A stretch of DNA of 64,000 bases from an uncultured Spirochaetota bacterium (GTDB lineage: Bacteria > Spirochaetota > Spirochaetia > JAFGXN01): NCBI GenBank assembly GCA_944388995.1, contig CALXKN010000001.1:1-64000 (forward strand), in the 5' to 3' direction. The translations under genes were made by a program, and so were the position numbers. The notes below the pieces were generated by a model. The model did not search any database. It saw only the letters and a program-made list of their open reading frames with translations, and was not told the DNA's origin. Every line of letters starts with the position of its first letter. Position 1 is the stretch's first letter. Of the stretch, positions 19,132 through 47,301 are shown piece by piece.

Positions 19132-19142
19132 TAAAAAAAGAT

Positions 19143-19170
19143 TTGCACTTTTTCCTATCTGCGCTATAAT
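19143..19170 (+). promoter_or_regulatory. Promoter of the SCP2/aminotransferase/transketolase operon
   Basis: TTGCAC (19143-19148), 16-bp spacer, perfect TATAAT (19165-19170). A GAGGAG ribosome-binding site precedes the first gene. This is the only clear promoter for the six-gene unit to 24480. Confidence 0.85.
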
Positions 19171-19211
19171 GAAATAAAAGATTATCTCAAACCTGATCAG
19201 AGGAGTCGATC

Positions 19212-19967
19212 ATGAAAAATCAGAAGGTACTGGCGTACTGCAATTTGTTTGCTGTTTTACGCAATATCGAATACCTTGCCGCGCATGATAAAGAGAGCAA
19301 AGCAGCCGTAGCCGGGAAAAATCTTTCCATCCAATTCAAGGTGAAAAACGGACCGTCGGGACAGCTGGTTTTTAAAAACGGAAGCGCCGAAATGCGCGAA
19401 GGATTCCATCCGTCTTCCATTATACTTTTCTTTACATCGCCGGAACATTTCAACAAAATGATCGACGGGAAAGCCAATCCGATCCCGTTAAAGGGTTTTA
19501 CCAAAATCGGTTTCCTGACCGGGCCGTTCATGAAGCTGGCCGAACGTCTTTCGTATTTTCTGAAACCGACGGAAGCGCTTTTATCCGACCCGGGATATTT
19601 TAAAATGAATACGGAAATGACGTTTTACACCGCGTTTTCAGCGCTGGCTCAAATCGGCAACCGCGACCGCAGGGGCATTCAGAATGCCAAACACATTCCC
19701 GACGGAACGGTTCAAGCCGCTATCGGCGACAGTGTCGGCCTGTACATCACGGCGAAAAACGGCAGACTGACAGCGGTTAAAGGATTTGCGGACAAACCGG
19801 CCGCCCGCCTCGTTTTCAAGGACCTGAAAACGGCGCAGGGGGTTTTATCGGGAAAAACCGACACTTATGCGGCCATTGCCGTCGGCGACCTGGTAATGAA
19901 GGGATTCATTCCGATGATCGAGCATATGAATCCGATTCTGGAATCCGTCAGCGGATATTTGTCATAG
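19212..19967 (+). CDS. Tandem SCP2-like (sterol-carrier/lipid-binding fold) protein
   Basis: A 251-residue cytosolic protein without signal or membrane helix. It looks like two SCP2-like halves: residues ~37-110 (an FKVKNG strand, then FFTSPEHF, then IDGK and a GF helix) and ~165-245 (YITAKNG, then LVFKDLKTAQGVLSGK, then GDLVMKGF). SCP2 domains bind sterols, acyl-CoAs or other hydrophobic ligands in a tunnel. It heads an operon with an aminotransferase, a split transketolase and a second SCP2-like protein (23140), so it may hold a lipophilic intermediate. The fold call rests on pattern only. Confidence 0.65.
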   Translation: MKNQKVLAYCNLFAVLRNIEYLAAHDKESKAAVAGKNLSIQFKVKNGPSGQLVFKNGSAEMREGFHPSSIILFFTSPEHFNKMIDGKANPIPLKGFTKIGFLTGPFMKLAERLSYFLKPTEALLSDPGYFKMNTEMTFYTAFSALAQIGNRDRRGIQNAKHIPDGTVQAAIGDSVGLYITAKNGRLTAVKGFADKPAARLVFKDLKTAQGVLSGKTDTYAAIAVGDLVMKGFIPMIEHMNPILESVSGYLS

Positions 19968-19976
19968 GAGCCCGTC

Positions 19977-21239
19977 ATGAAAGAGTTTTATACCAATCAA
20001 AAATCACAGGAACTGTTTAAGAAAGCGCTGAAATACATTCCGACAGGCATTCCCGGACACTTGGGACCGGTTCAGTCGCAGTTTATTCCGGCCGACGCGT
20101 TTCCGTTTTATGCCGAAAGAGCAAAGGATTCCTACTTCTGGAGCATTGACGGAAACAAATACATCGATTATATGTGCGCCTACGGTCCGAATATTCTGGG
20201 ATACAACAACGACATTGTCGACCGCGCGGCCGCCGAACAGCTGAAAAAAGGAAACTGCATGGCGCTTCCCGCCAAAGCACAGGTCGAACTGGCAGAACTT
20301 CTGTGCGGCACCATTGAAATTGCCGACTGGGCCTTCTTTTTAAAAAACGGGGGAGATGCGACCTCATTTGCCGTGATGACAGCCAAAGCCGCCACCGGTC
20401 GCAGTAAAACGATCCGCGTACAGGGAGGGTACCACGGCGTCGCTCCGTGGACGCAGGCAGAAGGCGCCAACGGAATTACCGCCGCTGATATGAAAGATAT
20501 CATTGTTATTCCGTGGAACGACACCGCCGCATTTGAAAAAGCGGTTGCCGAAAACAAGGATTCGATTGCCTGTTTCATCGCGACGCCCTACGATCACCGC
20601 ATTTTTGCCGACAACGCCCTTCCTCTTCCCGGATACTGGCAGAAAATCCGCGAAATCTGCACCAAAAACGGCATCGTGCTCATTGTTGACGACGTCCGCT
20701 GCGGATTCCGGCTTCACATTGAAGGAAGCGCAAAGTATTTCGGTTTCAAACCGGATTTGGCGTGCTACTGCAAAGCGCTTGCCAACGGCTACAACATCTC
20801 CGCCGTCGTCGGTATCGACGCGCTAAAATCCGCCGCCGGTTCGATTTTTTTTACGGGAAGTTACTGGTCGAGCGCCGTTCCGATGGCCGCCGCCGTCGCC
20901 TGTATCACCGAAATGAAAAGACTCGATATCGCCAACCTGTTTATCGAAAAAGGGAAAAAATTCGGCTCGGGAATGATTGACGCCGGACGGGCACACGGTA
21001 TTGACATGAAATTTTCGGGAGTCGAATCGATGCCGTTTATGCGCATCTCCAACGATCCGACTATGGAGATGATGCAGGATTTCTGCGCCGAATGTGTGAA
21101 ACGGGGAGTTTTTGTCGTCAGTCATCACAATCATTTTATGAACGCTTCCTTAACGGACGCCGACATCAAAAAGACGATCGCGGTGGCCGACGAAGCGTTT
21201 GCCGCCGTGGCAAAGCTGCATCCCGATAAAATCAACTGA
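19977..21239 (+). CDS. Class III aminotransferase, glutamate-1-semialdehyde aminotransferase-like
   Basis: A 420-residue PLP enzyme. The PLP lysine is K266 in CYCKALANGYN, preceded by the conserved Asp in LIVDDVRCGFR; the N-terminal GHLGPVQSQF and C-terminal SHHNHFMNASL regions match the GSA-aminomutase branch. I do not call it hemL: no tetrapyrrole gene is near and the DDVRCGFR block departs from the usual DEVxTGFR. Its partners are a split transketolase and two SCP2-like proteins, suggesting an amino group is moved on a ketone or aldehyde made or used by the transketolase. It begins 9 bp after the previous stop, with an AGGAG ribosome-binding site. Confidence 0.82.
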   Translation: MKEFYTNQKSQELFKKALKYIPTGIPGHLGPVQSQFIPADAFPFYAERAKDSYFWSIDGNKYIDYMCAYGPNILGYNNDIVDRAAAEQLKKGNCMALPAKAQVELAELLCGTIEIADWAFFLKNGGDATSFAVMTAKAATGRSKTIRVQGGYHGVAPWTQAEGANGITAADMKDIIVIPWNDTAAFEKAVAENKDSIACFIATPYDHRIFADNALPLPGYWQKIREICTKNGIVLIVDDVRCGFRLHIEGSAKYFGFKPDLACYCKALANGYNISAVVGIDALKSAAGSIFFTGSYWSSAVPMAAAVACITEMKRLDIANLFIEKGKKFGSGMIDAGRAHGIDMKFSGVESMPFMRISNDPTMEMMQDFCAECVKRGVFVVSHHNHFMNASLTDADIKKTIAVADEAFAAVAKLHPDKIN

Positions 21240-21260
21240 AAACGATAAAAGGAGAAAAAT

Positions 21261-22130
21261 ATGGGACTGACAAAAGACGAATTTCTTGCACTTGAAAACA
21301 AGGCAAGGGAACTACGCAAACTGACCGTCGATACGGTTATGTGGGCCAACGGAGGACATATCGGAGGCGCTTTGAGCGCAACCGATATTCTGACCATTCT
21401 GTATTACAAATACATGAATATTGACATCGCCAATCCGAAGTGGGAAGACCGCGACCGGTTCATTCTCAGTAAAGGGCATATCGGCGTCGGCTTTGCGCCG
21501 GTTTTGGCCGATAAAGGCTTTTTTGACAAAGAACTTTTAAAAACGTACAATCATACATACAGCAAACTGGGAATGCATTTGGACAAAAATAAAGTCATCG
21601 GACTGGACGCCTCAACGGGATCGCTCGGACACGGACTGAGTATCGCCCTCGGCATGGCTTTAGGCGGACGGCTGCAGGGGAAAAATTTCAAGGCATACTG
21701 TCTGCTCGGGGACGGAGAGTGCAACGAAGGATCTGTTTGGGAAGCCGCCATGGCTGTTTCCCACTATAAAGCAACCAACGTCATCACAATCGTCGACCGC
21801 AACAAATGCATGATTGACGGTCGGACGGAAGACGTCATGAGCCTGGAACCGTTTGCCGACAAATGGAAAGCTTTCGGATTTGACGTTAAAACTGTCAACG
21901 GACACGATATGTATGCACTGGCCGATGCGCTTGACTACGCACTTAAAGCCGAAAAGAAACCGGTTGCTGTCATCGCCGATACATTTAAAGGTTGCGGCGT
22001 CTCTGATATCCAGGACAACTACCAATACCATTATGCCAGTGTCAGTGCGGAAACCGCCGAAAAATACAAAAAACAGATCGACGAATATCACGATAATCGA
22101 TTGAAAAATCAGGAGAAAACGAATGGCTAA
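21261..22130 (+). CDS. Transketolase, N-terminal (thiamine-diphosphate pyrophosphate-binding) subunit
   Basis: A 289-residue half-transketolase. It has the SKGHIGVGF histidine motif, GSLGHGLSIALG, and the Mg/ThDP motif GDGECNEG followed by a conserved Asn (near 155-185). Transketolases move two-carbon ketol units between sugars; split forms also serve specialised pathways. The C-terminal half is encoded by the next gene with an 8-bp overlap. The ribosome-binding site is AAAGGAG. Confidence 0.93.
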   Translation: MGLTKDEFLALENKARELRKLTVDTVMWANGGHIGGALSATDILTILYYKYMNIDIANPKWEDRDRFILSKGHIGVGFAPVLADKGFFDKELLKTYNHTYSKLGMHLDKNKVIGLDASTGSLGHGLSIALGMALGGRLQGKNFKAYCLLGDGECNEGSVWEAAMAVSHYKATNVITIVDRNKCMIDGRTEDVMSLEPFADKWKAFGFDVKTVNGHDMYALADALDYALKAEKKPVAVIADTFKGCGVSDIQDNYQYHYASVSAETAEKYKKQIDEYHDNRLKNQEKTNG

Positions 22131-23130
22131 TTTGAATTATACCATGTTGGACGCGGAAAAAATGTCCACTGCAGAATATTACGGAAAGGTTCTCTGTGAT
22201 TTGGCGGCAAAAGATCCCCGTGTAGTCGGACTTTCCGCCGATCTGGCCAAATCAACAAAAATCGGAGCCTTGGCAAAGGATTTTCCCGATCGGATTTTTA
22301 ATTTCGGGATTGCCGAGCAAAATATGTTCGGAGCCGCCGCCGGAATGGCCGAAGCCGGACTGATTCCTTTTACATCGACATTTGCTGTTTTTGCTTCAAT
22401 GCGAGCGCTGGATCAATTCCATACCGACATCTGTTACCAAAACATGAACGTCAAAGTGATTGCCACCCACGCAGGGCTCTCTTTCGGACAGGCAGGCAGC
22501 ACCCATCACTGCACCGAAGACATCGGCATCATGCGGACAATGGCCAACTGCCGCGTCATCGTGCCGGCAGACGGAATGGAAACCGCCAACGCTGTTATAG
22601 CCGCCTACGAAAACGACGGACCTTTTTATATCCGAATCAACCGCGGATACGATATGCCGGTATACCGGGACACCGACTACGGATTTGAATTGGGGAAAGC
22701 GGTCCAACTGGCGGAAGGAACCGATTTAACCATCATTGCCTGCGGAGCCTGCGTCGCCCGCGCTTTGGCAGCCGCAAAAGAACTTGAATCGGACGGTATC
22801 CGCGCCCGTGTATTGAATATGCACACTATCAAACCGATTGATAAAGAAGCGATTGAAAAAGCCGTCATTGACACGAAACGGATCATTACCGTTGAAGATC
22901 ACAACATCATCGGAGGATTGGGAAGCGCCGTCGCTGAAACCGTCACCGAATTCGGGAAAGCGTGCGTCATGCGGAAACTGGGGGTTCCCGACACATTCTC
23001 CATCATCGGACTGCACGAAGATCTGATGTCGGAGTACGGATACGACTCAAACGGAATCGTCAAAACAGCCCGGGAAATCATGAACGTCACAATCGAAGAA
23101 GATGACGATTGGGATGACGATGATTTTTAG
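22123..23130 (+). CDS. Transketolase, C-terminal (pyrimidine-binding) subunit
   Basis: A 335-residue partner of the preceding gene. The ThDP-activating glutamate lies in FNFGIAEQNMFG, with FTSTFAVFASMRALDQ after it; a C-terminal transketolase domain begins near residue 190. The protein ends in a very acidic tail (EEDDDWDDDDF), unusual for the family and perhaps an interaction surface. The start overlaps the upstream gene by 8 bp, so the two halves are made together. Confidence 0.93.
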   Translation: MANLNYTMLDAEKMSTAEYYGKVLCDLAAKDPRVVGLSADLAKSTKIGALAKDFPDRIFNFGIAEQNMFGAAAGMAEAGLIPFTSTFAVFASMRALDQFHTDICYQNMNVKVIATHAGLSFGQAGSTHHCTEDIGIMRTMANCRVIVPADGMETANAVIAAYENDGPFYIRINRGYDMPVYRDTDYGFELGKAVQLAEGTDLTIIACGACVARALAAAKELESDGIRARVLNMHTIKPIDKEAIEKAVIDTKRIITVEDHNIIGGLGSAVAETVTEFGKACVMRKLGVPDTFSIIGLHEDLMSEYGYDSNGIVKTAREIMNVTIEEDDDWDDDDF

Positions 23131-23139
23131 GAGACGAAA

Positions 23140-23946
23140 ATGGGAACACAAATCACAAAAGAGCAGGAGACTCTTTTTTCAACCAATCTTTTTCTGTACG
23201 CTGTCTGTCCATTGCTGAAAACCATTCTTGAAGACAGACCCGCTTTACAGGCAGCGTGGCAAAAAAAACGGACCGTTGCCCAAATCAGCTGTTTGGACGC
23301 CGACGGGAAAAAGGCGATTCACTATCTGTTTGAAAACGGTACCTGCACGCCGAAAAAAGGCGTCAGTGAAGAACCTGTCGATATTGAACTTGAATTCAAA
23401 TCTCCCGAACATTTATGCTCTTTTTTCAAAGGAAAATTATTTCCTCTGCCGAAAATGAAAGGAGCTCTGAGACATTTTTCGGTTTTTTTGAATTTTATGA
23501 AGCTGCTGCTGACTATGTCCGGTCTGCTCGGCGCAAAAACCGCTCCAAAAAAAACCGAAGATCAGAAACTGCTGGTCAAATGTATGTTTTACCTGCTCTC
23601 CCGCGGTATCAGTATTTTAAATAAACTCGGACACCCCGACGTCTCTGCTTGGGCTGCCGTCAGCCCTGACCGCGTTTACGCATGGGCCGTCGAAGGGGAA
23701 CCTGAATTGGCTGCATGGCTCAGGGTCAAAAAAGGACGGACAAAAGCACGCCGCGGACAGTATGTCAGAAGCATGCCGTTTTTTACAATGAAATTCGATT
23801 CACCGAAAAGCGCATTGGGAATTTTGCAGGAAACCGATGATATGATTGAAGCAACCATTCAAAAGCGGCTGATCATGGTCGGAGGCCCGGAATTCGGCGC
23901 CCAATTAGGCGATTTTATGCTGCTTGTCGGCAGTTTGGTTAAATAG
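23140..23946 (+). CDS. Second tandem SCP2-like protein
   Basis: A 268-residue protein with the same layout as the operon's first gene: an N-terminal half with FKSPEHLCSFFKGKLFPLP and a C-terminal half with FDSPKSALGILQETDDMIEA. The two are too diverged to be a recent duplication. No signal peptide or membrane helix is evident. It starts 9 bp after the transketolase stop (AGGAG site). A lipid-carrier or ligand-holding role is inferred from the fold resemblance. Confidence 0.6.
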   Translation: MGTQITKEQETLFSTNLFLYAVCPLLKTILEDRPALQAAWQKKRTVAQISCLDADGKKAIHYLFENGTCTPKKGVSEEPVDIELEFKSPEHLCSFFKGKLFPLPKMKGALRHFSVFLNFMKLLLTMSGLLGAKTAPKKTEDQKLLVKCMFYLLSRGISILNKLGHPDVSAWAAVSPDRVYAWAVEGEPELAAWLRVKKGRTKARRGQYVRSMPFFTMKFDSPKSALGILQETDDMIEATIQKRLIMVGGPEFGAQLGDFMLLVGSLVK

Positions 23947-23955
23947 GAGGCTCCG

Positions 23956-24480
23956 ATGCGAATCAGAGGTTTCAATCACGTCGGCATCACGGTCAGGGAT
24001 TTTAAAAAAGCCGTTCAATGGTACCATGAGGTTTTCGGATGTTCCCTTATCTCCGAAGGCGGTTTGACAGCCGAACGGGTCTCCGAAATGAAAAAGCTCT
24101 ATAATCTGCCGGAAGGGGTCAGTGTCCACTTCGGGTTCTTGGTTTGCCCGCACGGCGGTTTAATCGAAATTTTTGAATTCTCAGAGACAGCTCCGTTTGC
24201 CCACTGCTGGAACCGTCCGGGAACCCACCACTTCACGCTTGACGTTAAAAATGTAAAAAAATGGTATAAAAAACTGAGTACGCGCAGTGACGTCGAAATT
24301 TTAAACGAACCGCAGCGCGACGACGGCGCAGATTGGTTTTTCTTCCGGGATCCGGACGGCAATCTCATCGAATTAATGGATTTGGGGAAAAATTATTTCC
24401 CGATTAAATACTTAAGTCGTCCGATCGGATTTTTTATGCGGAAATTTAAATTCAAGAAATTCTATACCGGGAAATCATAA
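23956..24480 (+). CDS. VOC-superfamily (glyoxalase/epimerase-like) protein
   Basis: A 174-residue vicinal-oxygen-chelate protein with two beta-alpha-beta-beta-beta modules. Probable metal ligands are H8 (NHVGI), E71 (GLIEIFEF), H91 or H92 (GTHHFTL) and E139 (NLIELMD). The family includes methylmalonyl-CoA epimerase and glyoxalase I. The basic C-terminal tail (MRKFKFKKFYTGK) extends past the core. It is the last gene of the tightly packed operon; an epimerase or isomerase step is plausible but not shown. Confidence 0.82.
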   Translation: MRIRGFNHVGITVRDFKKAVQWYHEVFGCSLISEGGLTAERVSEMKKLYNLPEGVSVHFGFLVCPHGGLIEIFEFSETAPFAHCWNRPGTHHFTLDVKNVKKWYKKLSTRSDVEILNEPQRDDGADWFFFRDPDGNLIELMDLGKNYFPIKYLSRPIGFFMRKFKFKKFYTGKS

Positions 24481-24506
24481 GGGAAATCCCGTAATTCGGA
24501 TTGATT

Positions 24507-26072
24507 ATGAAAACGAGCGCGTTCATCCGTTCAGCCGGACTCATCGCCGTATCGGCAGCAGCTGTTTCATGTCCGCCACAACCGGAAGCTGTTTATCCCG
24601 ACAGACTGATAGTTCCCGGTGAGGACAACGGTTCAAAAGCCGTCAAAACGGCCGCCGATTACGGCATCACGCAAAAACCGAACGTCATCTTCATTCTGCT
24701 CGACGATGCCGGTTACGGCGACATCGGGTGCAACGGACAGACGTATTTTCGGACGCCGAATATCGACCGGCTGGCGGAGAACGGAATCCGCTTTGTCAAC
24801 CACTACGCCGGCGCGCCGGTCAGCGCTTCGTCGCGCTGCGCGCTTCTGACGGGAAAAACCACGGGACACAGTTTTATCAGAGGAAATTTGGAATTCGGGT
24901 CCGGAGTCGGATTGTATCCTTCGTCGGTAACAGGAGAGGGGCAGAAAGGGTTACCCGCATCGGAGTATACGCTGGCACAGCTGCTTAAGGAAAACGGTTA
25001 CAACACGGCGCTTGTCGGCAAGTGGGGACTGGGAATGCCGGAAGAGGAAAGTTCTCCGTCTGATAAAGGTTTCGACAAATACTACGGACACCTCTGCCAG
25101 CGCATGGCGCACTCCTACTTTCCCGACCACGTCTGGGAAAACGACGCCGAAGTTCCGCTGGAAGGCAACACGGGAGAAGCCGGTTCGATTTGGCTTCACG
25201 ATGAATTTGAAAAAAAGACGGCCGAATATCTGAGCGAATTTTTAAGCTCACAGAAGCCGTTCTTCTTTTTCGGAACCTACACCATTCCCCACGGGGCGCT
25301 GCAAATTCCGGAAGGAAAACTGAATGACGTGGAGTATCATCCGTACACAACGGCCGGCTGGTGGTCAAAAGCCTCCGAAGACATGAAGCGCTATGCGGTT
25401 ATGATGCACCGCCTTGATTTGACCGTCGGTAAAATCATCGAGCAAGTGGAGGCGTCGGGAAAAGCGGACAATACCCTGATTCTCTTTTCAAGCGACAACG
25501 GACCTGCAGACGAATACGGAGCCGATCCGGATTTCTTTGAAAGCGCCGGCCGTTTCGGCGAAGAGCGGCTGAGGGGAATCAAACGGGCGCTTTATGAAGG
25601 CGGCGTCAAAGTGCCGTTTATCGCCTCGTGGAGCGGCAAAATCAAACCGGGGGTTTCCGAACACATTTTCGCCTCCTACGACATCATGGCGACCGTCGCC
25701 CAGATTCTCGGAACAGATTTATCCGAAAAAACACAGACCGACGGCCTTTCGTTTCTGCCGGTTTTAATGGGAGATACAGCGAACCAAAAACAGCACCCCT
25801 ACCTTTACTGGGAGTTTGTCGGATCAGAGCCGTCCGAAGGCGGCGGACCGCGGCAGGGCGTGCGCAGCGGCGACTGGAAAGCGGTGCTGAACTTCGGAGA
25901 AGTCGCAAAAGCCAAAGCAGGAGAAGGGGCAATCGAACTGTATCATTTGGGCGACGATCCCGGAGAAACAATTAATCTGGCATCGGTTTATCCGAATATC
26001 ATCAGTTCAATGAGAAGAATCATGTCCGACGCCCACGAAAACACTTTATTCTTTCCGCAGATCGAAAAATAA
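24507..26072 (+). CDS. Sulfatase (S1 family) lipoprotein with a serine-type active site
   Basis: A 521-residue secreted sulfatase. The signal peptide ends in AVSC, so C22 is probably lipidated. Metal ligands are in LLDDAGYGD (D66, D67) and SSDNGP. The formylglycine site reads APVSASSRCALLTG: the residue to be modified is Ser106 rather than Cys, and the usual Pro after it is Ser. Serine-type sulfatases need the radical-SAM maturase anSME, which is not in this window. ATG 24507 is preferred over TTG 24501, though the ribosome-binding site is weak. Only 26 bp without a terminator separate it from the VOC gene. Confidence 0.88.
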   Translation: MKTSAFIRSAGLIAVSAAAVSCPPQPEAVYPDRLIVPGEDNGSKAVKTAADYGITQKPNVIFILLDDAGYGDIGCNGQTYFRTPNIDRLAENGIRFVNHYAGAPVSASSRCALLTGKTTGHSFIRGNLEFGSGVGLYPSSVTGEGQKGLPASEYTLAQLLKENGYNTALVGKWGLGMPEEESSPSDKGFDKYYGHLCQRMAHSYFPDHVWENDAEVPLEGNTGEAGSIWLHDEFEKKTAEYLSEFLSSQKPFFFFGTYTIPHGALQIPEGKLNDVEYHPYTTAGWWSKASEDMKRYAVMMHRLDLTVGKIIEQVEASGKADNTLILFSSDNGPADEYGADPDFFESAGRFGEERLRGIKRALYEGGVKVPFIASWSGKIKPGVSEHIFASYDIMATVAQILGTDLSEKTQTDGLSFLPVLMGDTANQKQHPYLYWEFVGSEPSEGGGPRQGVRSGDWKAVLNFGEVAKAKAGEGAIELYHLGDDPGETINLASVYPNIISSMRRIMSDAHENTLFFPQIEK

Positions 26073-26148
26073 GCGTCTGTACGGAAAGATGTTTGCGCAA
26101 TAAGCGGCGAAGAGATGAAAACACATTCCCTTTTGCCGGAAAATCGGC

Positions 26149-26154
26149 TATAAT
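26149..26154 (+). promoter_or_regulatory. -10 box of the CvfB-like gene (leaderless arrangement)
   Basis: A perfect TATAAT ends 8 bp before the ATG at 26163. The -35 (TTCCCT, 17 bp upstream) is weak. Transcription should start within about two bases of the ATG. Confidence 0.6.
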
Positions 26155-26162
26155 CAGAGCTG

Positions 26163-27026
26163 ATGATTCAGCCCGACCGTTATTTCCGCCTGAAAATGAA
26201 AAAGAAAATTTCCGCCGGCATTCTCCTGACCGACGGGGAAACCGACGTCCTGCTGCCGGCTTCCGATTCGCGGCCGTCGTTTCAAAAAGGAAAAGAGACC
26301 GACGTTTTCGTTTACAACAACCGCGATTCGTTGAGGGCGACCGAACGCAGGCCCTTTGCCGTTCAGGGCGAATTTGCCGCGCTGACGGTCAAAAGCGTCG
26401 AACCGTTCGGAGTGTTTGCCGACTGGGGCATTCCCAAAGATCTGTTTATACCGTCGCGGAACCTGGATCACGACGAATACGAACCGGGAGAGACGATTAT
26501 TGTGCGGCTGACTCCCAACTTTGGGGGAGATACGACCGTCGGCGACTGTTACATTGAAGATTATCTGGAAACCGACGGAATTGATTTAAAACCCAACGAC
26601 AAAGTTGAAATTCTGATTTATAAATTGACTAAACTCGGCGCGTGCGCTGTTGTCGGCAACCGCTTTTTCGGATTGCTTTATCATCACGATGCACAAAATG
26701 CCTTTTACATCGGCGAGCGTCGAAACGCTTATGTTAAAAAAATTCGGGAAGACGGCCGCATCGATTTGACCCTTTTTCCGCAAGGTTACCGCGCTTCGCA
26801 GCCGGTCGCCGAAAAAACGCTGCTGGATGCGTTAAAGGCAGCCGGTGGGGTTTTGCCGCTCGGCGACGCCTCCTCCCCCGAAGAGATTGAAGCCGCCGTC
26901 GGCATGAGCAAGGCGCTGTTTAAACGCACCGCAGGCGCACTCTACAAACGGGGGAAAATTCTGATTTTTGACAACAAAATCACTGTGCCGCTGCGCCGAA
27001 AACCGCGCCCGCCCCGCCGTTCATAA
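26163..27026 (+). CDS. cvfB: CvfB-like S1 RNA-binding protein
   Basis: A 287-residue cytosolic protein. It appears to hold S1-like modules (about 12-65, 65-140 with VKSVEPFGVFADWGIPKDLFIP, and 145-215) and a C-terminal winged-helix region (225-280, ALFKRTAGALYKRGKI), the CvfB arrangement. Firmicute members bind RNA and affect virulence gene expression. There is no Shine-Dalgarno and the -10 lies right before the ATG, so the mRNA is probably leaderless. Confidence 0.8.
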   Translation: MIQPDRYFRLKMKKKISAGILLTDGETDVLLPASDSRPSFQKGKETDVFVYNNRDSLRATERRPFAVQGEFAALTVKSVEPFGVFADWGIPKDLFIPSRNLDHDEYEPGETIIVRLTPNFGGDTTVGDCYIEDYLETDGIDLKPNDKVEILIYKLTKLGACAVVGNRFFGLLYHHDAQNAFYIGERRNAYVKKIREDGRIDLTLFPQGYRASQPVAEKTLLDALKAAGGVLPLGDASSPEEIEAAVGMSKALFKRTAGALYKRGKILIFDNKITVPLRRKPRPPRRS

Positions 27027-27049
27027 AAAAACCGCGCCCGAAGGCGCGG
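27023..27049 (-). terminator. Terminator of the GH16 gene
   Basis: Stem CCGCGCC-CGAA-GGCGCGG (27032-27049), followed on the minus strand by seven T. It also lies just past the CvfB-like stop but has no U-run in that direction. Confidence 0.85.
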
Positions 27050-27070
27050 CCGGTCAGTCTGCCGTCAGTT

Positions 27071-28375
27071 TCAGTTTGCTGCCGCGGAGTTTGCCGGAAA
27101 ATCGTCGCGTCCGCCGTACCAGTTCTCCTGAGGTTCCAGCGCATAGAAGGCAAAGTAATCGGCAAAAAGCGTATCGTATGGTTTAATGATCCGTCCTCCG
27201 TTCGGTTCGTAAGATTTCAGATAAAGACCGTGGTCATTGTTCCACTGCCCCATTTCAATCGAATATTTAATCTGAATAGGATTAAACGCATCGTCGGCTA
27301 ACCGGGCCTGCTCCGCGGCCGTTTCCAACCAACCTTTTACGGAATCCCCTTTTTTGCGCTCCAGACGCTTTTCCCCGTCAAACCAAATGACGAAACCGTC
27401 AGGAGTCCAGAGCATACTCAGAATAAAAGCCTCTCCGTCTTTCATTTTCGGCTGCCGGGAAAGATTTCCCATAGCTCCGTAACCGTCATTCTGACGAAGT
27501 TCATCAATAGTTTTTAAATCATGCACTTCTCCGTACAAATCCTTTGAAGGAGGAGTCCCTCCTTTTTTCAGTTCTTCAACGCCGGGGTAACCGCCGTACC
27601 AATCCCAGCAGTGTTCCGCCTGCCATTGAAAATCTGTTGTATCCACCCATTCGTACATATCGTACTCATAAACCTGCTGTCCGTTGAATCCCTGCCACTG
27701 AGAAGGCGCTCTGTTGTTTTCGGTATACAAATCGGTTTTCCGTTTCATATCAGAGACATCCAGTGAAACGCCCGCTTCATCCAACATTTTCTGAGTCGGA
27801 AGAAACAGTGTCTTTTTTCCGTAAGCGCGGCTGAACGGGTTATTGCTTTCCGCCCACCACGCATCCCAATGCGCACGCGCGTGCTTATTCATAATGATGC
27901 GCGTCTCAAAATACCCGTAAGGGAACTGCCGCCGCGAATGAACGGCTCCCGTCAATCCGTATCCTGTCCGAATCCGGTTCCCGTCTTTGTCATACACAGG
28001 AACAGTCGGATCGTAGAGAGTCCAAAGCGCAAGAAATCCGTCCTGCAGCCTGACGGCCTTCGGCGACCAGTACGGCTGTTTGTAGCGGTCGTTCTTGTAG
28101 CCTTTCAGACCGTCGTCAAATACCACTTCTTCCGGCATTTCGTATCCATAATTGCCGAATTCGGGTTTTTCATACCCCGGGTTACCGATATCCCAATCCT
28201 CTTCAAAAGATTCCTGATTATCGAAATTATCGGCATAAGTCAGACTCAGACGGTAAGTCTTCCCGAAAGCCTCAACAGAGACCTCTTCCTTAGGACGGAC
28301 AGCCTGCAATTCCGGTAAGACAGTTGTACAGGCAATAAAGGCGAATCCGCACAACAGCAATAAAACTCTTTCCAT
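27071..28375 (-). CDS. GH16-family glycoside hydrolase lipoprotein
   Basis: A 434-residue secreted enzyme with a lipobox ending FIAC (C16). The GH16 catalytic signature ExDxxE is EYDMYE (E237 nucleophile, D239, E242 acid/base), preceded by a beta-strand block YGYFETRIIMNKHARAHWDAWW typical of the fold. GH16 members are endo-acting beta-galactanases, glucanases, agarases or mucin O-glycanases; the substrate cannot be read from the motif. The start at 28375 has AGAGG upstream. It is divergent from a GH20/GH95 pair, which argues for a shared glycan target. Confidence 0.88.
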   Translation of the reverse strand: MERVLLLLCGFAFIACTTVLPELQAVRPKEEVSVEAFGKTYRLSLTYADNFDNQESFEEDWDIGNPGYEKPEFGNYGYEMPEEVVFDDGLKGYKNDRYKQPYWSPKAVRLQDGFLALWTLYDPTVPVYDKDGNRIRTGYGLTGAVHSRRQFPYGYFETRIIMNKHARAHWDAWWAESNNPFSRAYGKKTLFLPTQKMLDEAGVSLDVSDMKRKTDLYTENNRAPSQWQGFNGQQVYEYDMYEWVDTTDFQWQAEHCWDWYGGYPGVEELKKGGTPPSKDLYGEVHDLKTIDELRQNDGYGAMGNLSRQPKMKDGEAFILSMLWTPDGFVIWFDGEKRLERKKGDSVKGWLETAAEQARLADDAFNPIQIKYSIEMGQWNNDHGLYLKSYEPNGGRIIKPYDTLFADYFAFYALEPQENWYGGRDDFPANSAAAN

Positions 28376-28396
28376 AACGGCAACCTCTTTCACATT

Positions 28397-28425
28397 ATCA
28401 TACCACACCGAACGGTCAAAAACAA
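28397..28425 (-). promoter_or_regulatory. Promoter of the GH16 gene
   Basis: On the minus strand TTGTTT (28420-28425), 17-bp spacer, TATGAT (28397-28402). It is about 45 bp from the divergent GH20 promoter, so one regulator could serve both. Confidence 0.65.
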
Positions 28426-28470
28426 GCAGGTGAAGAATTTCTGCCTGAAAACGAACTTTTTGTTTTATTA

Positions 28471-28499
28471 TTGAAAAAACACCGTCGGCTGTTTATTAT
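28471..28499 (+). promoter_or_regulatory. Promoter of the GH20-GH95 operon (leaderless arrangement)
   Basis: TTGAAA (28471-28476), 17-bp spacer, TATTAT (28494-28499); an overlapping TATAAT sits at 28497-28502. With the first choice, transcription would start on the ATG at 28506. There is no Shine-Dalgarno. Confidence 0.65.
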
Positions 28500-28505
28500 A
28501 ATAGA

Positions 28506-30374
28506 ATGAAAGTTTTTCAATTTTTTTCGATTCTGTTGCTTGCGCTCCTTTCCATTGCCGGATGTCTTTCCGTCGATGTTCAGGAAGAAGTTTCCCGTAT
28601 TGATACGGCGGAGTACCGCGCGCCGGTTGATCTAACGGCGGCTGAAGAGGCGCCGCGCGCGTTGATTCCGTTTCCCCGTGAAGTGATCTGGGGCAGCGGC
28701 GAACAGCCGCTTCCTCAGTGTTCCGTCAAAAAATCGATCGGAAAGCTGCCCTTTTCCGATTCGCCGGAAGCGTATTCGCTGACTGTCGGAAACGGCCGCG
28801 TCGACATCATGGCCTCTTCTGAACGGGGAATCCGCTATGCCGAGCTGACGCTGAATCAGCTGTCCGAGGGAGGAAGAAAACCGCTGCCCTCATGCGTTAT
28901 CCGCGACTGGCCGGCGTTTGAGATCCGCGGCTTTCATCAGGATACCGGCCGCAATTATCAGAGTCCCGAACGGCTCAAAGAGCAGATTCGGCGGTTGGCG
29001 GCGTACAAACTCAACACGTTTCACTGGCACATTACCGACAATCCCGGTTGGCGCGTCGAATGCAAAACCTATCCGATTCTCAACGACCCGAAGACGATGT
29101 ACCGTTCGGACTCCTTCTATACTTACGACGAAATCCGCGACGTCATCGCCTTTGCAAAAGAACAGGGAATGCAGATCATCATCGAACTCGATATGCCGGG
29201 ACACAGCAAATATTTCCCGAAGGCGTTCGGTTTTTCAATGGGATCAAAACGAGGCACGCAGATTTGCCGCGAACTGATTCGGGAATTCTGCGAAGAAATT
29301 CCCGTCGAGGATGCTCCGATTATTCACATCGGAGCCGATGAAGTGCGCGCACCGGTAATCGATGAGTTTATGGCAGAGATTGAGGCCGAATTGAAAGCGA
29401 ATAACCGAATCGGCATGGTTTGGCACCCGGGTATTCCGGCCCCGCCGTCGTTTATCGATCACATTTGGTTCGAAAACCACAAACAGAGCGGCCGCAAAAG
29501 CATCGATTCAAGCGGAATGTACACCAACACCCTCGACTACTTCAACGTCATCCAGGCGATTTATTTCAAGCAGCCGTGTGAAGTTCCCGAAGGTTCGGAG
29601 TTTGATTTGGGTGCGATTGTCTGCAACTGGAACGACGTTGCAGTCGCCGATGAACGCGATCCGATGCTCAACAACCCGGTTTACGCTTCGGGTCTCACCG
29701 GCGCCGAAATTTTTTGGAACGGCAACCCGACCGGCAGTCAGCGCTATAAACAGGTTCTGCCGCCGACAGGCAGCGAAGCGCTGAGAGCATTTGCCGAATT
29801 CGAAAACCGTCTTTTGATTCATAAAGAGCTGTATTTCAACGATGTCGGCGGCGAATTTGTTTACACGCGGCAAGCTGATCAAGTGTGGCAGCTGACGGGA
29901 CCGAACGGCGAAACGGCCGAAGCGCGCGGCGTATCGCTTTTACTCGGCGACTATTTTCCGAATGCCAAAAAACGACAGGCGGCGGTCTGCCGGTTGGAAG
30001 TCTTCGCCGACGAAGAAAAAGAGGTGCTGCTTCACGCCGGTTTTGACGTTCCGGGACGCGCCCACCGCTTTTACGGCGGCATTCCTCCGAAGGGAAAATG
30101 GGACCGCTACGGCAGTACGATTACGTTAAACGGCGAACCGGTCGCTCCGCCTGAGTGGAAGCAGCCGGGCGCCTACCGCCACGACATTGTCCAAACATGG
30201 GATCACCCGGTACAGGAGGTCCCGTGGACAGCCGAAGAACTCTACTGGCGCCGGCAACCGGTCCGTATACAGCTGAAAAAAGGAGTCAACGTTATCGAAA
30301 TCAAAGCGGTCAAAAATTCACCGAAACAGACCTGGATGACGGCATTTTGGATTGAAGAAATCGAAACCCGATGA
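28506..30374 (+). CDS. GH20 beta-N-acetylhexosaminidase lipoprotein
   Basis: A 622-residue secreted enzyme that removes terminal GlcNAc or GalNAc. Its lipobox is SIAGC (C20). An N-terminal GH20b-like domain (about 50-135) precedes the catalytic barrel, which opens with FEIRGFHQDTGRN and holds the catalytic pair D278-E279 in HIGADE; WHITDNPGWR and ELDMPGHS line the site. About 180 C-terminal residues form a separate beta-rich region. The gene overlaps the GH95 gene by 4 bp (ATGA). Confidence 0.93.
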   Translation: MKVFQFFSILLLALLSIAGCLSVDVQEEVSRIDTAEYRAPVDLTAAEEAPRALIPFPREVIWGSGEQPLPQCSVKKSIGKLPFSDSPEAYSLTVGNGRVDIMASSERGIRYAELTLNQLSEGGRKPLPSCVIRDWPAFEIRGFHQDTGRNYQSPERLKEQIRRLAAYKLNTFHWHITDNPGWRVECKTYPILNDPKTMYRSDSFYTYDEIRDVIAFAKEQGMQIIIELDMPGHSKYFPKAFGFSMGSKRGTQICRELIREFCEEIPVEDAPIIHIGADEVRAPVIDEFMAEIEAELKANNRIGMVWHPGIPAPPSFIDHIWFENHKQSGRKSIDSSGMYTNTLDYFNVIQAIYFKQPCEVPEGSEFDLGAIVCNWNDVAVADERDPMLNNPVYASGLTGAEIFWNGNPTGSQRYKQVLPPTGSEALRAFAEFENRLLIHKELYFNDVGGEFVYTRQADQVWQLTGPNGETAEARGVSLLLGDYFPNAKKRQAAVCRLEVFADEEKEVLLHAGFDVPGRAHRFYGGIPPKGKWDRYGSTITLNGEPVAPPEWKQPGAYRHDIVQTWDHPVQEVPWTAEELYWRRQPVRIQLKKGVNVIEIKAVKNSPKQTWMTAFWIEEIETR

Positions 30375-32827
30375 ACTCTTCGCTCTCTCCGGTCATTCTC
30401 ATAGGGACGATTCTCACAGGAACGCTTTTCTTTTCTCCCAATGCCTCTGCAGCCGAATCGGCCGATAAAGTCCTTTTCTACAAAAAACCGGCACAAAATT
30501 GGGAACAGGAAGCTCTTCCGATCGGAAACGGATGGATGGGCGCTTCTCTTTTCGGAGGAGTTTCCCATGAACGGATTCTTCTGAACGAAAAGACACTCTG
30601 GGAAGGAGGTCCGGGAGAATGGACCGGGTACGGCAAACCCGATCCCGGTAAAGGCGCCTTTGCCTTACCGGAAATCAGAAAAGCCGTCGCCGAAGGCCGC
30701 TACGAAGAAGCTCATCGTCTTTCGCAAAAGTATCTGACGGGTAACGGAACAGGAAAAGGAGCATATCAGCCTCTCGGAACCCTCGATCTTCATTTCCCCG
30801 AACTCGGAGAAAACCCCCGAAATTATATACGAAAATTGGATACATCCGTCGCTCTTCATTCCGTTACTTTCAGCTCGGACGGGACACATTATACCCGAAC
30901 GGCATTTGCCTCTTACCCCGATAAAGCAATGCTCTTCGCACTGACGGCAGACACCGAACGGAAAATCACATTCGGATTGCAGTGGGAACCGGTAACGGAT
31001 ACGAACAACTATTACGACCGATATCGCAACGAATTCCCCTGCTTAAATCCGAACGTCGGGAGAGGACGCAGGGAAACGGTATCGACAGTCTGTATCGACA
31101 GCCGGACGGCACGAATGACAGTCGAAGGAATCCTGAACAACAACGGCATGAAATACGCCGCCGTCATTTACATAAAAGCCGTCAACGGTACGATCGCTGC
31201 CGACGGCGAATCGGTGACTGTTCGGGGCGCCGACAGTGCCGTTCTCTTTTTCTCCGCGGCAACAGACTACATCAACGAATACCCTTTGTACAAAAGCCGT
31301 CGGTCACCTCTCAAAACGGCCGACAAATTGGCCCGTGAAGCCTGCCGAAAAGGGATCGACCGAATACTCGAGAATCACCGGCGCGACTATACGAATCTCT
31401 TTGACAGAACAACTCTCCGTTTTTCGACCCGATCCGATTCGAAAACGGATATTCCGACCGATAAACGCTTGCGCCGTTTTGCCGTCAGCAGAGACCCGCT
31501 GTTTTTGGAACTGCTTTTTAATTACGGAAAATATCTGCTGATTTCTTCTTCCCGTGAAGGCTCTCTGCCGCTCAACTTACAGGGATTGTGGAATGCCTAC
31601 ACCGATCCGCCGTGGAGCAGCGACTACCATACCAATATCAACCTTCAAATGGCCTACTGGCCCGCCGAGCCTCTCGATCTGGGAGAGGTCCACAAACCGC
31701 TGCTCGACTACATTCCGACACTGGTTCAACCGGGAGAAATCACCGCCCGTCACTATTACGGCACCGACGGATGGGTCTGCCATACAAGCAACAACCCTTT
31801 TGGGGAAACGCAGCCCGGCTGGGGAATTGTCTGGGGCCATTTTCCCGGAGCGGCAGCCTGGCTCTGCCGCCATTTATGGGATCACTACCTGTATACGCAG
31901 GATACCGCTTTTCTGAAAGAGATCTATCCGACGATCAAAGGCGCCGCGCAATTTTGGGTCGATTGGCTGATTGAAGACGAAACCGGTCATCTGATCTCCT
32001 CTCCTTCTTATTCTCCCGAGCACGGCACCGTGTCGGCCGGCGCGTCAATGGATTTCCAAATCGCACACGAAATCCTGAAAACCGTCGTTTCCGCTTCCGA
32101 AATTCTCGAAACCGACGAGCGGGAGCGGGAGGATTGGCGCTCCTGTTTGAAACGGATTCCGCAACCGAAAATCGGACGGTGGGGACAGCTCCAGGAGTGG
32201 GCCAAAGACATCGATTCGAAGACAAACAAACACCGCCATATTTCTCATTTGTACGCCCTACATCCGGGAACTCAAATTTCTCCGATTACGACACCCGAGT
32301 TGGCAAAAGCGGCTGCCGTTACGCTAAAAGCCCGAGGCGATAAGGGCACCGGGTGGTCGATGGCATGGAAAATGAATTTCCATGCCCGTCTGGGGAACGG
32401 CGACCACTCGTACCGGCTGCTGAGGAATTTTGTCAAGCCGACTTCGCGGTCGGAAATTGCCCTTTCCGGCGGCGGCTTTTATAAAAATTTGTGGGATGCC
32501 CACCCTCCGTTTCAGATTGACGGTAACTTCGGACTTGTCTCCGCCTTTATCGAATGGCTGCTGCAAAGCGGTAACGGAGAGATTCATCTGCTGCCGGCGC
32601 TGCCTTCGGCTATCGCAAGCGGCCGCTTTTCCGGTTTTAAAGCGGCCGGCGGGTTTACCGTATTCGCATCGTGGGAACAGGGGCAACTGACGGAAGCCGT
32701 TATCCGTTCCGATGCCGGAAAACCGTTAACGGTTCGCTACGCCGGCAAAACAATCGATATCGAACTGCAGCGGGGCGAATCGGTCCGGCTCAACGGCAAT
32801 CCGGAAATTCTTTTTTCGGAACGATAA
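30371..32827 (+). CDS. GH95 alpha-L-fucosidase, secreted
   Basis: An 818-residue enzyme with a cleavable signal peptide (cut near ASA-AES), so it is periplasmic or released. GH95 landmarks: the N-terminal WEQEALPIGNGWMGASLFGG, NEKTLWEGGP, the catalytic pair N422 and N424 in HTNINLQMAYWP (compare N421/N423 of Bifidobacterium AfcA), SPSYSPEHG carrying the general acid, and D717 in FQIDGNFG. The family cleaves alpha-1,2-linked fucose, the cap of many mucin and milk glycans; some members take alpha-galactose. Translationally coupled to the GH20 gene. Confidence 0.94.
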   Translation: MNSSLSPVILIGTILTGTLFFSPNASAAESADKVLFYKKPAQNWEQEALPIGNGWMGASLFGGVSHERILLNEKTLWEGGPGEWTGYGKPDPGKGAFALPEIRKAVAEGRYEEAHRLSQKYLTGNGTGKGAYQPLGTLDLHFPELGENPRNYIRKLDTSVALHSVTFSSDGTHYTRTAFASYPDKAMLFALTADTERKITFGLQWEPVTDTNNYYDRYRNEFPCLNPNVGRGRRETVSTVCIDSRTARMTVEGILNNNGMKYAAVIYIKAVNGTIAADGESVTVRGADSAVLFFSAATDYINEYPLYKSRRSPLKTADKLAREACRKGIDRILENHRRDYTNLFDRTTLRFSTRSDSKTDIPTDKRLRRFAVSRDPLFLELLFNYGKYLLISSSREGSLPLNLQGLWNAYTDPPWSSDYHTNINLQMAYWPAEPLDLGEVHKPLLDYIPTLVQPGEITARHYYGTDGWVCHTSNNPFGETQPGWGIVWGHFPGAAAWLCRHLWDHYLYTQDTAFLKEIYPTIKGAAQFWVDWLIEDETGHLISSPSYSPEHGTVSAGASMDFQIAHEILKTVVSASEILETDEREREDWRSCLKRIPQPKIGRWGQLQEWAKDIDSKTNKHRHISHLYALHPGTQISPITTPELAKAAAVTLKARGDKGTGWSMAWKMNFHARLGNGDHSYRLLRNFVKPTSRSEIALSGGGFYKNLWDAHPPFQIDGNFGLVSAFIEWLLQSGNGEIHLLPALPSAIASGRFSGFKAAGGFTVFASWEQGQLTEAVIRSDAGKPLTVRYAGKTIDIELQRGESVRLNGNPEILFSER

Positions 32828-45804: not shown

Positions 45805-47301
45805 TCAATACAACGAACTGTAATAAAGCCCGATCGAAGAAATTTCCGGAATGTATCTCGACTGAACGATGTTGATACGCACCTTTTGCGCTTTCTGCAG
45901 CGGGAATTTCAAAAGCCGTTTGTATCCGATGGTGGTCGACCGTTCGACTTCTTTCCAGTCGCGGCCGTTCCAAACTTCAAGGGCGAATTTTTCGACGCGC
46001 TGCCCGTTGGCAATGTTCTCTCCGATACTAAGGCGGTTGAACCATTTTTCCTCACCAAGATCCAACTCGACGGTCATCTGATAATTCTCTCCTGAAACTT
46101 CAGAGTCGGTCCGTTTGGCGCCGGCAGCCCGGTTTTCTCCGAAAATTTCTTTAATTGTATCCCCGAATTCTTTCAGCCGTTTGACATCTCTGTCATGCAA
46201 CAGTCCGCGTTTGTCGGGAGGAATATTTAACAGAAGAACCGAATTTCGACCGACAGATTTATAGTAAATATCCATCAGTTTGGCCAGAGATTTTACCTGA
46301 AGATTCTGATAATCATGGTAAAACCAACCCGGCCGAATGGAAGTATCGCACTCGGCAGGATACCAAATCGCTTCTTCCGCTGCCGAAATGGCGACGCGGT
46401 CCCCCATATATTCGGACGAGGCATCATAGTTATACGAAGTAATACCCAATGCTTCCATTTCTTCGGGGGTAATATTTTCATAATGAAAGCCTCCTTCTTC
46501 AAATGCAGCGGCGATATCGTCCTGATCCCTGGCCGTTGCCGGAACCACGCTCCATTCCGATTCCCGCGCCAAACCCGATTCGTTGCCGACCCACCGGACG
46601 TCGGGGCCGCTGACGGCAATCACGCAGTTATCGTTGCGTTCCCGGATCGTTTTATAAAAACGGTTCCAGTCATAAACCTGTTTTTTGCCGTTGGGACCTT
46701 CCCCGTTGGCGCCGTCAAACCAAAATTCGTCAATATCGGGGCCGTAAAGATCAAAAATTTCGTTGATTTGGTTGTCAAAGTAGTCGTTGTAGGCGTCTGT
46801 TCCGTATGTTTTTTCATGGCGATCCCACGGAGAGAGATAAATTCCGATTTTGATTCCCTCTGCCCGGCAGGCATCGACGAATTCCTTGACTACGTCGCCC
46901 TGACCGTTTTTATACAAAGAAGAAGCCACGTCATGCGTTGTGTACTTCGACGGCCACAAACAAAATCCGTCGTGGTGTTTGGCCGTTAAAATCGCCAGTT
47001 TGAAACCGGCCGCCTTCACTGCTTTTACCCACTGACGGCAATCCAGCTCCGTCGGATTGAACAGCTTCGGATCTTCGGTTCCGTCGCCCCACTCCACGTC
47101 TGTAAACGTATTGATTCCGAAATGAAAAAAGCAGGTCAGCTCCAGTTGCTGCCAAGCCAGCTGACGCGGATGCGGCTTCACCTCAGCCGCTGCCCTCACT
47201 TTTTCCGGATCGACAAATCCTTCCCGATCCTTCCATGCATCCGTTGCATTACAGGAAAGAACCGAAACCATCAAAATAAAGAAAAAAACTGCCTTTTTCA
47301 T
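45805..47301 (-). CDS. GH29 alpha-L-fucosidase lipoprotein
   Basis: A 498-residue secreted fucosidase with lipobox SVLSC (C17). The catalytic domain (about 40-370) has HFGINTFTDVEWG, LTAKHHDGFCLWPS and the nucleophile D196 in EFWFDGANGEG. Residues ~390-495 form a C-terminal F5/8-type C (CBM32-like) beta-sandwich. GH29 enzymes, especially those with this domain, often cleave alpha-1,3/1,4 fucose. First gene of the operon with eda and kdgK; the ribosome-binding site is GGAGG. Confidence 0.93.
   Translation of the reverse strand: MKKAVFFFILMVSVLSCNATDAWKDREGFVDPEKVRAAAEVKPHPRQLAWQQLELTCFFHFGINTFTDVEWGDGTEDPKLFNPTELDCRQWVKAVKAAGFKLAILTAKHHDGFCLWPSKYTTHDVASSLYKNGQGDVVKEFVDACRAEGIKIGIYLSPWDRHEKTYGTDAYNDYFDNQINEIFDLYGPDIDEFWFDGANGEGPNGKKQVYDWNRFYKTIRERNDNCVIAVSGPDVRWVGNESGLARESEWSVVPATARDQDDIAAAFEEGGFHYENITPEEMEALGITSYNYDASSEYMGDRVAISAAEEAIWYPAECDTSIRPGWFYHDYQNLQVKSLAKLMDIYYKSVGRNSVLLLNIPPDKRGLLHDRDVKRLKEFGDTIKEIFGENRAAGAKRTDSEVSGENYQMTVELDLGEEKWFNRLSIGENIANGQRVEKFALEVWNGRDWKEVERSTTIGYKRLLKFPLQKAQKVRINIVQSRYIPEISSIGLYYSSLY

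Follow-up and report, generated by a model that had tools for sequence, protein, structure and literature searches.

A conserved operon of five genes, shared by uncultured spirochaetes and gut Clostridia, is confirmed in the stretch of DNA analysed here (the window), 64,000 nucleotides from an uncultured Spirochaetota bacterium whose genome (G000) is 1.93 Mb in size and 98% complete. The operon, referred to below as the module, encodes a predicted lipid carrier of SCP2 type (SCP2a), a class III aminotransferase (AT), the N and C halves of a split transketolase (TKN and TKC) and a second SCP2-like carrier (SCP2b). From the genes it holds and their order, its conservation, the predicted folds and the altered residues we infer, with about even confidence, a substrate, a direction and a series of reactions: the module would degrade long-chain 2-amino-1,3-diols and thereby detoxify them, and the likeliest substrate would be sphinganine or sphingosine acquired from the host, the diet or other microbes. 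The enzyme families are known but the pathway is undescribed. An initial annotation of the DNA had likewise named no described pathway with this set, and the open-access literature yielded no paper with these genes together or with a transketolase acting on sphingoid bases. Sphingoid bases reach the gut with the diet and with host cells, and their bacterial breakdown is poorly known. A compact recurring module names candidate enzymes, a candidate reaction order and a marker for carriers, and in either direction it would extend transketolase chemistry on lipids past the steroid example discussed below.

A scan of GTDB genomes gave 80 loci at 50-93% identity, mainly from gut Clostridia, with a few from spirochaetes and one from a record labelled Coriobacteriia; the habitats of the carriers are for the most part herbivore guts. 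The order SCP2a-AT-TKN-TKC-SCP2b is kept within 7 kb in 72 of the 80, and of the eight loci that depart from it six are truncated at the end of a contig. Median intergenic gaps across the loci are 13, 47, 2 and 24 bp. Furthermore, the five proteins have pairwise distance matrices that correlate with one another (r 0.66-0.93, with 0 of 300 permutations as high). Within the class of the window, relatives of the aminotransferase at 65-93% identity occur in six other genomes, the next best match reaching only 39%; SCP2b is present in five of these six and nowhere else among 98 genomes. The module is infrequent, being found in 6 of 295 genomes of one Clostridia order and in 5 of 391 genomes of a class sample, where four of the five carry a divergent form. 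Since flanking genes vary between lineages, the module is taken to be an independent unit. The initial annotation had expected a set of six families, including a VOC-superfamily protein, to co-occur in genomes; this holds for the first five genes, while the VOC gene is found only in spirochaete loci (L036, L037 and L039-L043), and for that reason the conserved unit is taken as five genes. As a separate observation on the surroundings, the upstream side of the module in 16 clostridial loci (L067, L069-L072, L076, L079, L083, L091, L096, L099, L106, L109, L111, L116 and L120) carries, in divergent orientation, genes for a class II aldolase and for another class III aminotransferase, this one GSAM-like.

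The closest solved relative of AT is FumI (6hbs; E 5.7e-90), the class III aminopentol aminotransferase of Sphingopyxis MTA144, with 305 bits against 163 bits for glutamate-1-semialdehyde (GSA) aminomutase (GSAM). FumI acts at C2 of hydrolysed fumonisin, a long-chain 2-amino-3-hydroxy analogue of sphinganine, transferring its amino group to pyruvate (PMC2933618), and from this kinship a similar activity may be proposed for AT. FumI belongs to a fumonisin degradation cluster, with no transketolase known alongside. Among 125 columns conserved in the AT family, 88 match FumI and 62 match GSAM, and in a tree the AT family, FumI and an SCP2-linked sister clade group apart from GSAM, which sits on a long branch. 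A role as GSA aminomutase (HemL) in heme synthesis was considered and rejected, since AT scores far below the hemL cut-offs, with 222 bits for TIGR00713 against an equivalog cut-off of 527.

The two transketolase halves find their PDB matches in the split-gene transketolase of Carboxydothermus hydrogenoformans (6yak for TKN, E 1.9e-74; 6yaj for TKC, E 6.9e-83), the closest solved structure and likewise made of two chains. This relative is a working sugar transketolase that also takes aldehydes including phenylacetaldehyde (PMC7661550); it differs from the module in retaining R358 and D469 (E. coli numbering) and in having neither lipid carriers nor an aminotransferase. In the module's transketolase family the GDGE motif, the catalytic Glu and the ketol-handling histidines are conserved, and the sites of S385, H461, H473, R520 and E411 are invariant. 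The R358 site, however, is Ala in 73 of 75 sequences and the D469 site is Ala in all 75. The sugar-phosphate site (R358, S385, H461, R520) is therefore only partly retained, three of the four residues being kept and R358 lost, with D469 lost in addition. In the E. coli enzyme, mutations at R358, S385, D469 and R520 extend the substrate range to aldehydes that are non-polar or aromatic (PMC5073344, PMC7661550). The changes at R358 and D469 may be read as supportive, not diagnostic, as D469 is missing from many other split transketolases too, and the partly kept phosphate site would fit an enzyme with one phosphorylated and one lipid substrate.

Both carriers are predicted, by confident models, to be tandem SCP2 folds. 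The AlphaFold2 (AF2) model of SCP2a has a mean confidence (pLDDT) of 92.3 and Foldseek matches to SCP-2, UbiJ and SdsA1, while that of SCP2b reaches 93.5 and matches SCP-2 and the C-terminal domain of the alkylsulfatase SdsA1. A search of SCP2b against Pfam gave no match, so that the early description of two SCP2-like proteins is borne out by PF02036 and a model for SCP2a and by predicted fold for SCP2b. The two are homologous in profile-profile comparison (hhalign probability 97.8%).

Natural splits indicate that the module has two halves, each consisting of a carrier and an enzyme. In one Spirochaetaceae genome (that of L110) the two parts, SCP2a-AT and TKN-TKC-SCP2b, are found on separate contigs, which indicates that the genes belong together. 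In the sister AT clade of spirochaetes, an SCP2a homologue stands directly upstream of the aminotransferase (hhalign probability 99.9%) with no transketolase (L184 7089-11104, L186 8168-11298, L187 8476-12503, L188 and L189); these pairs adjoin a DUF819 membrane protein and often a short-chain dehydrogenase of the SDR family (not in L186). Conversely, a divergent clostridial variant without AT (L197-L200) has the order TKN-TKC-SCP2b-Zn-dependent dehydrogenase-MerR, the dehydrogenase and the MerR regulator standing in for SCP2a-AT. Genome G003, which has SCP2a-AT without a transketolase of the family, was dropped as proof that the aminotransferase acts first, as the genome is 81% complete.

The pathway that we propose follows these halves. 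SCP2a would present the lipid to AT, which would convert sphingoid base and keto acid to a 1,3-dihydroxy-2-ketone and an amino acid. Such a ketone could serve as a transketolase donor, and the split transketolase, together with SCP2b, would cut it between C2 and C3. The C2 ketol would pass to a sugar phosphate, giving a ketose phosphate two carbons longer that could enter the pentose phosphate pathway. The other product would be a fatty aldehyde shortened by two carbons, to be oxidised to the fatty acid by ALDH3 where this lies in the operon and otherwise by general enzymes.

As either reaction can run both ways, the direction has to be judged from gene context. The initial annotation had proposed synthesis; the context probably fits breakdown better. 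ALDH3, a fatty aldehyde dehydrogenase class, accompanies the module in three lineages: it directly follows SCP2b in L115 (gap of 27 bp) and in L211 (gap of about 80 bp), and it occurs in one of the four AT-less loci (L200), where it matches human fatty aldehyde dehydrogenase in the PDB at E 3.9e-122, an unspecific ALDH3 match being equally strong. Replacement of AT by a Zn-dehydrogenase and the occurrence of SCP2a-AT without transketolase point the same way, as does, by analogy, the DesAB pair of Clostridium scindens, a split transketolase held to strip cortisol of its ketol side chain and to feed the pentose phosphate pathway (PMC3735941). The TetR genes that stand divergent to the module in spirochaetes were also counted for breakdown. 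BaiCD-like reductases inside the operon in three spirochaetes could, speculatively, reduce a 2-enal. Moreover, sphingoid bases are antibacterial at the mucosa, and sulfatase, GH20, GH95 and alpha-L-fucosidase genes in the window (24501-32827 and 45805-47301) suggest the use of sulfated, fucosylated host glycans.

Several points weigh against this proposal, apart from the reversibility of both steps. AT shares only about 39% identity with FumI. Many other split transketolases have lost D469 as well (the site is Asp in 9 of 28 outgroup sequences), so its loss is not specific, and for the same reason it was rejected as a unique signature of the family. Genome-wide, ALDH3 is not enriched (8 of 46 carriers against 9 of 34 controls), and its co-occurrence at that level was discarded as support. 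The ceramidase evidence is weak. G000 encodes two lipoproteins of the neutral ceramidase family (L176:4505-7273 and L177:5828-8518) whose nucleophilic serine is replaced by Gly and Asp, and full-length ceramidase is absent from most Clostridia carriers. The copies of G122 and G002 retain the serine. Among the 98 Spirochaetia genomes full-length matches occur in G000, G001 and G002 only, all three operon-bearing, and in one Clostridia order in 1 of 295 genomes, operon-bearing but chosen as the centre of the sample. Ceramidase was set aside as proof of breakdown, being weak on two counts: the three spirochaetes belong to a single family, and neither of the G000 copies has the catalytic serine. 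Finally, canonical transketolases form a 3S centre and natural sphingosine is 3R. Speculatively, the VOC protein of the spirochaetes might act as an epimerase and so bear on this mismatch. A sphingoid-type substrate, as the initial annotation had it, is favoured on account of the FumI-like AT, the SCP2 folds and the two lost acceptor residues; synthesis as the direction is not supported.

Among the alternatives, a different hydrophobic 2-amino- or 2-keto-1,3-diol handled by the same chemistry, such as an amino-lipid of bacteria or an analogue of sphinganine from plants or fungi, is a possibility that we hold with low confidence. The carriers come mainly from herbivore guts, the FumI kinship covers analogues as well as sphinganine, and the variant with a Zn-dehydrogenase points to 2-hydroxy compounds as related substrates. 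However, fumonisins are without the C1 hydroxyl that transketolase requires, and the broad spread across phyla suggests a common substrate.

Somewhat more doubtful is synthesis, in which the transketolase would transfer a ketol onto a fatty aldehyde, after which AT would aminate the resulting ketone to a sphingoid base without serine palmitoyltransferase (SPT). Synthesis would draw on the same pair of reversible reactions and on unchanged carriers, coupled transketolase-transaminase synthesis of amino alcohols is established in vitro (PMC5813273), and a weakly PapA-like acyltransferase lies 45-54 bp downstream in five related clostridial loci. SPT itself is absent where the initial annotation would have it absent: none was found in G000, where the sole alpha-oxoamine synthase is a BioW-BioF fusion of biotin synthesis, nor, at E 1e-20, in 28 carriers outside the spirochaetes. 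This absence, which was counted for breakdown as well, covers G000 and those 28; alpha-oxoamine synthases, of whichever type, are encoded by some of the remaining spirochaete carriers. The BioW-BioF-like fusion (L126:685-2643, G000 contig C16, 652 aa) was recognised by visual inspection rather than through a family search. On the other hand, no gene forming fatty aldehydes or ceramides was seen travelling with the module, ALDH3, which consumes aldehydes, does so in three lineages, and SCP2a-AT pairs without transketolase would be left without a substrate. Gut Clostridia and spirochaetes lacking SPT that assembled sphingoid bases de novo, joining fatty aldehydes to sugar-derived C2 units by way of transketolase and a FumI-like aminotransferase, would represent a second, unrelated origin of sphingolipid backbones, a prospect that we regard as equally doubtful. 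If it ran in reverse, the module would offer a route to sphingolipids free of SPT.

An amino-sugar pathway, with the transketolase acting on sugar phosphates and AT on a ketose, had been named as the main alternative and now looks very unlikely. The invariant S385, H461 and R520 of the phosphate site and the sugar activity of the C. hydrogenoformans relative (PMC7661550) are in its favour, but the two tandem SCP2 proteins are constant members, the aminotransferase is FumI-like, R358 and D469 are changed, and the recurrent neighbours of the module include no genes for sugar nucleotides, kinases or glycosyltransferases. Least probable of all is a steroid side-chain pathway akin to DesAB with the SCP2 proteins as sterol carriers: the AT-less variant has its split transketolase and Zn-dehydrogenase in desABC order and BaiCD-like oxidoreductases flank six loci, but a desmolase yields a 17-ketone, which would leave ALDH3 without a role, and the aminotransferase has no evident place.

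Three known systems help to place the proposed breakdown of sphingoid bases. The steroid-17,20-desmolase operon desABCD of C. scindens (PMC3735941) also belongs to a gut anaerobe and has a split N/C transketolase proposed to take a C2 ketol off a lipid. It differs in having no aminotransferase and no SCP2 protein and its product is a ketone, where the module would give an aldehyde. Genes for a desC-type dehydrogenase and for a desD transporter are absent from the core module, a Zn-dehydrogenase being present only in the AT-less variant. The module is not a des operon. The gene order of the AT-less variant does resemble desAB-desC, both having a Zn-dehydrogenase next to the transketolase pair. 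In Pseudomonas aeruginosa, the sphBCD operon removes toxic sphingosine, the metabolite being not yet identified (PMC11893366). It is, like the module as proposed, a bacterial operon acting on sphingosine, but its products belong to other protein families (a predicted periplasmic cytochrome, a flavin mononucleotide-dependent (FMN) oxidoreductase and a pyridoxal phosphate-dependent (PLP) aldolase).

Eukaryotes break down sphingoid bases by a kinase and sphingosine-1-phosphate (S1P) lyase followed by ALDH3A2. The proposed module would yield the same C16 aldehyde, again with oxidation by ALDH3; the eukaryotic route differs in using phosphorylation and a PLP lyase, with no transamination and no thiamine diphosphate (ThDP) step.

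The features of the window are collected in the table. As initially described, the six open reading frames (ORFs) form a tightly spaced operon, all on the plus strand, with gaps of 9-21 bp and one overlap: SCP2a-9 bp-AT-21 bp-TKN-8 bp overlap-TKC-9 bp-SCP2b-9 bp-VOC. The single shared promoter that had been proposed can be upheld in part, as a sigma-70-like site is present at the start of the region, but it is a consensus match only, and such sites are barely above shuffled sequence (10 found against 7.2 expected). The sulfatase ORF begins 20 bp past VOC with the start codon TTG, and in the genus of the window the transcript may extend into it. Outside this genus the sulfatase is not beside the module, and another gene intervenes in a sister genome (L042).

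Features of the module and its neighbours in the window
Feature	Position	Strand	Basis
Sigma-70-like promoter, TTTGCA-17-TATAAT	19142..19170	+	10/12 consensus positions; consensus match only
SCP2a, tandem SCP2-fold predicted lipid carrier, putative partner of the aminotransferase	19212..19967	+	PF02036, E 1.4e-7
AT, class III aminotransferase, closest to FumI	19977..21239	+	PF00202
TKN, transketolase N half, ThDP diphosphate-binding domain	21261..22130	+	PF00456, E 4.4e-41
TKC, transketolase C half, pyrimidine and C-terminal domains, altered acceptor site	22123..23130	+	PF02779, PF02780
SCP2b, tandem SCP2-fold predicted lipid carrier, putative partner of the transketolase	23140..23946	+	AF2 and Foldseek
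VOC-superfamily protein, accessory, spirochaetes only	23956..24480	+	PF00903, E 1.3e-19
Sulfatase lipoprotein, outside the conserved module	24501..26072	+	PF00884

A minor observation concerns the record labelled Coriobacteriia (G123, 1.1 Mb; L115 8787-14200). Its AT and TKN genes contain in-frame TGA codons at columns that are Trp in the respective families (73/73, 65/73 and 78/78), and judging from these columns G123 probably reads TGA as Trp. The taxonomic label of this genome may deserve checking.

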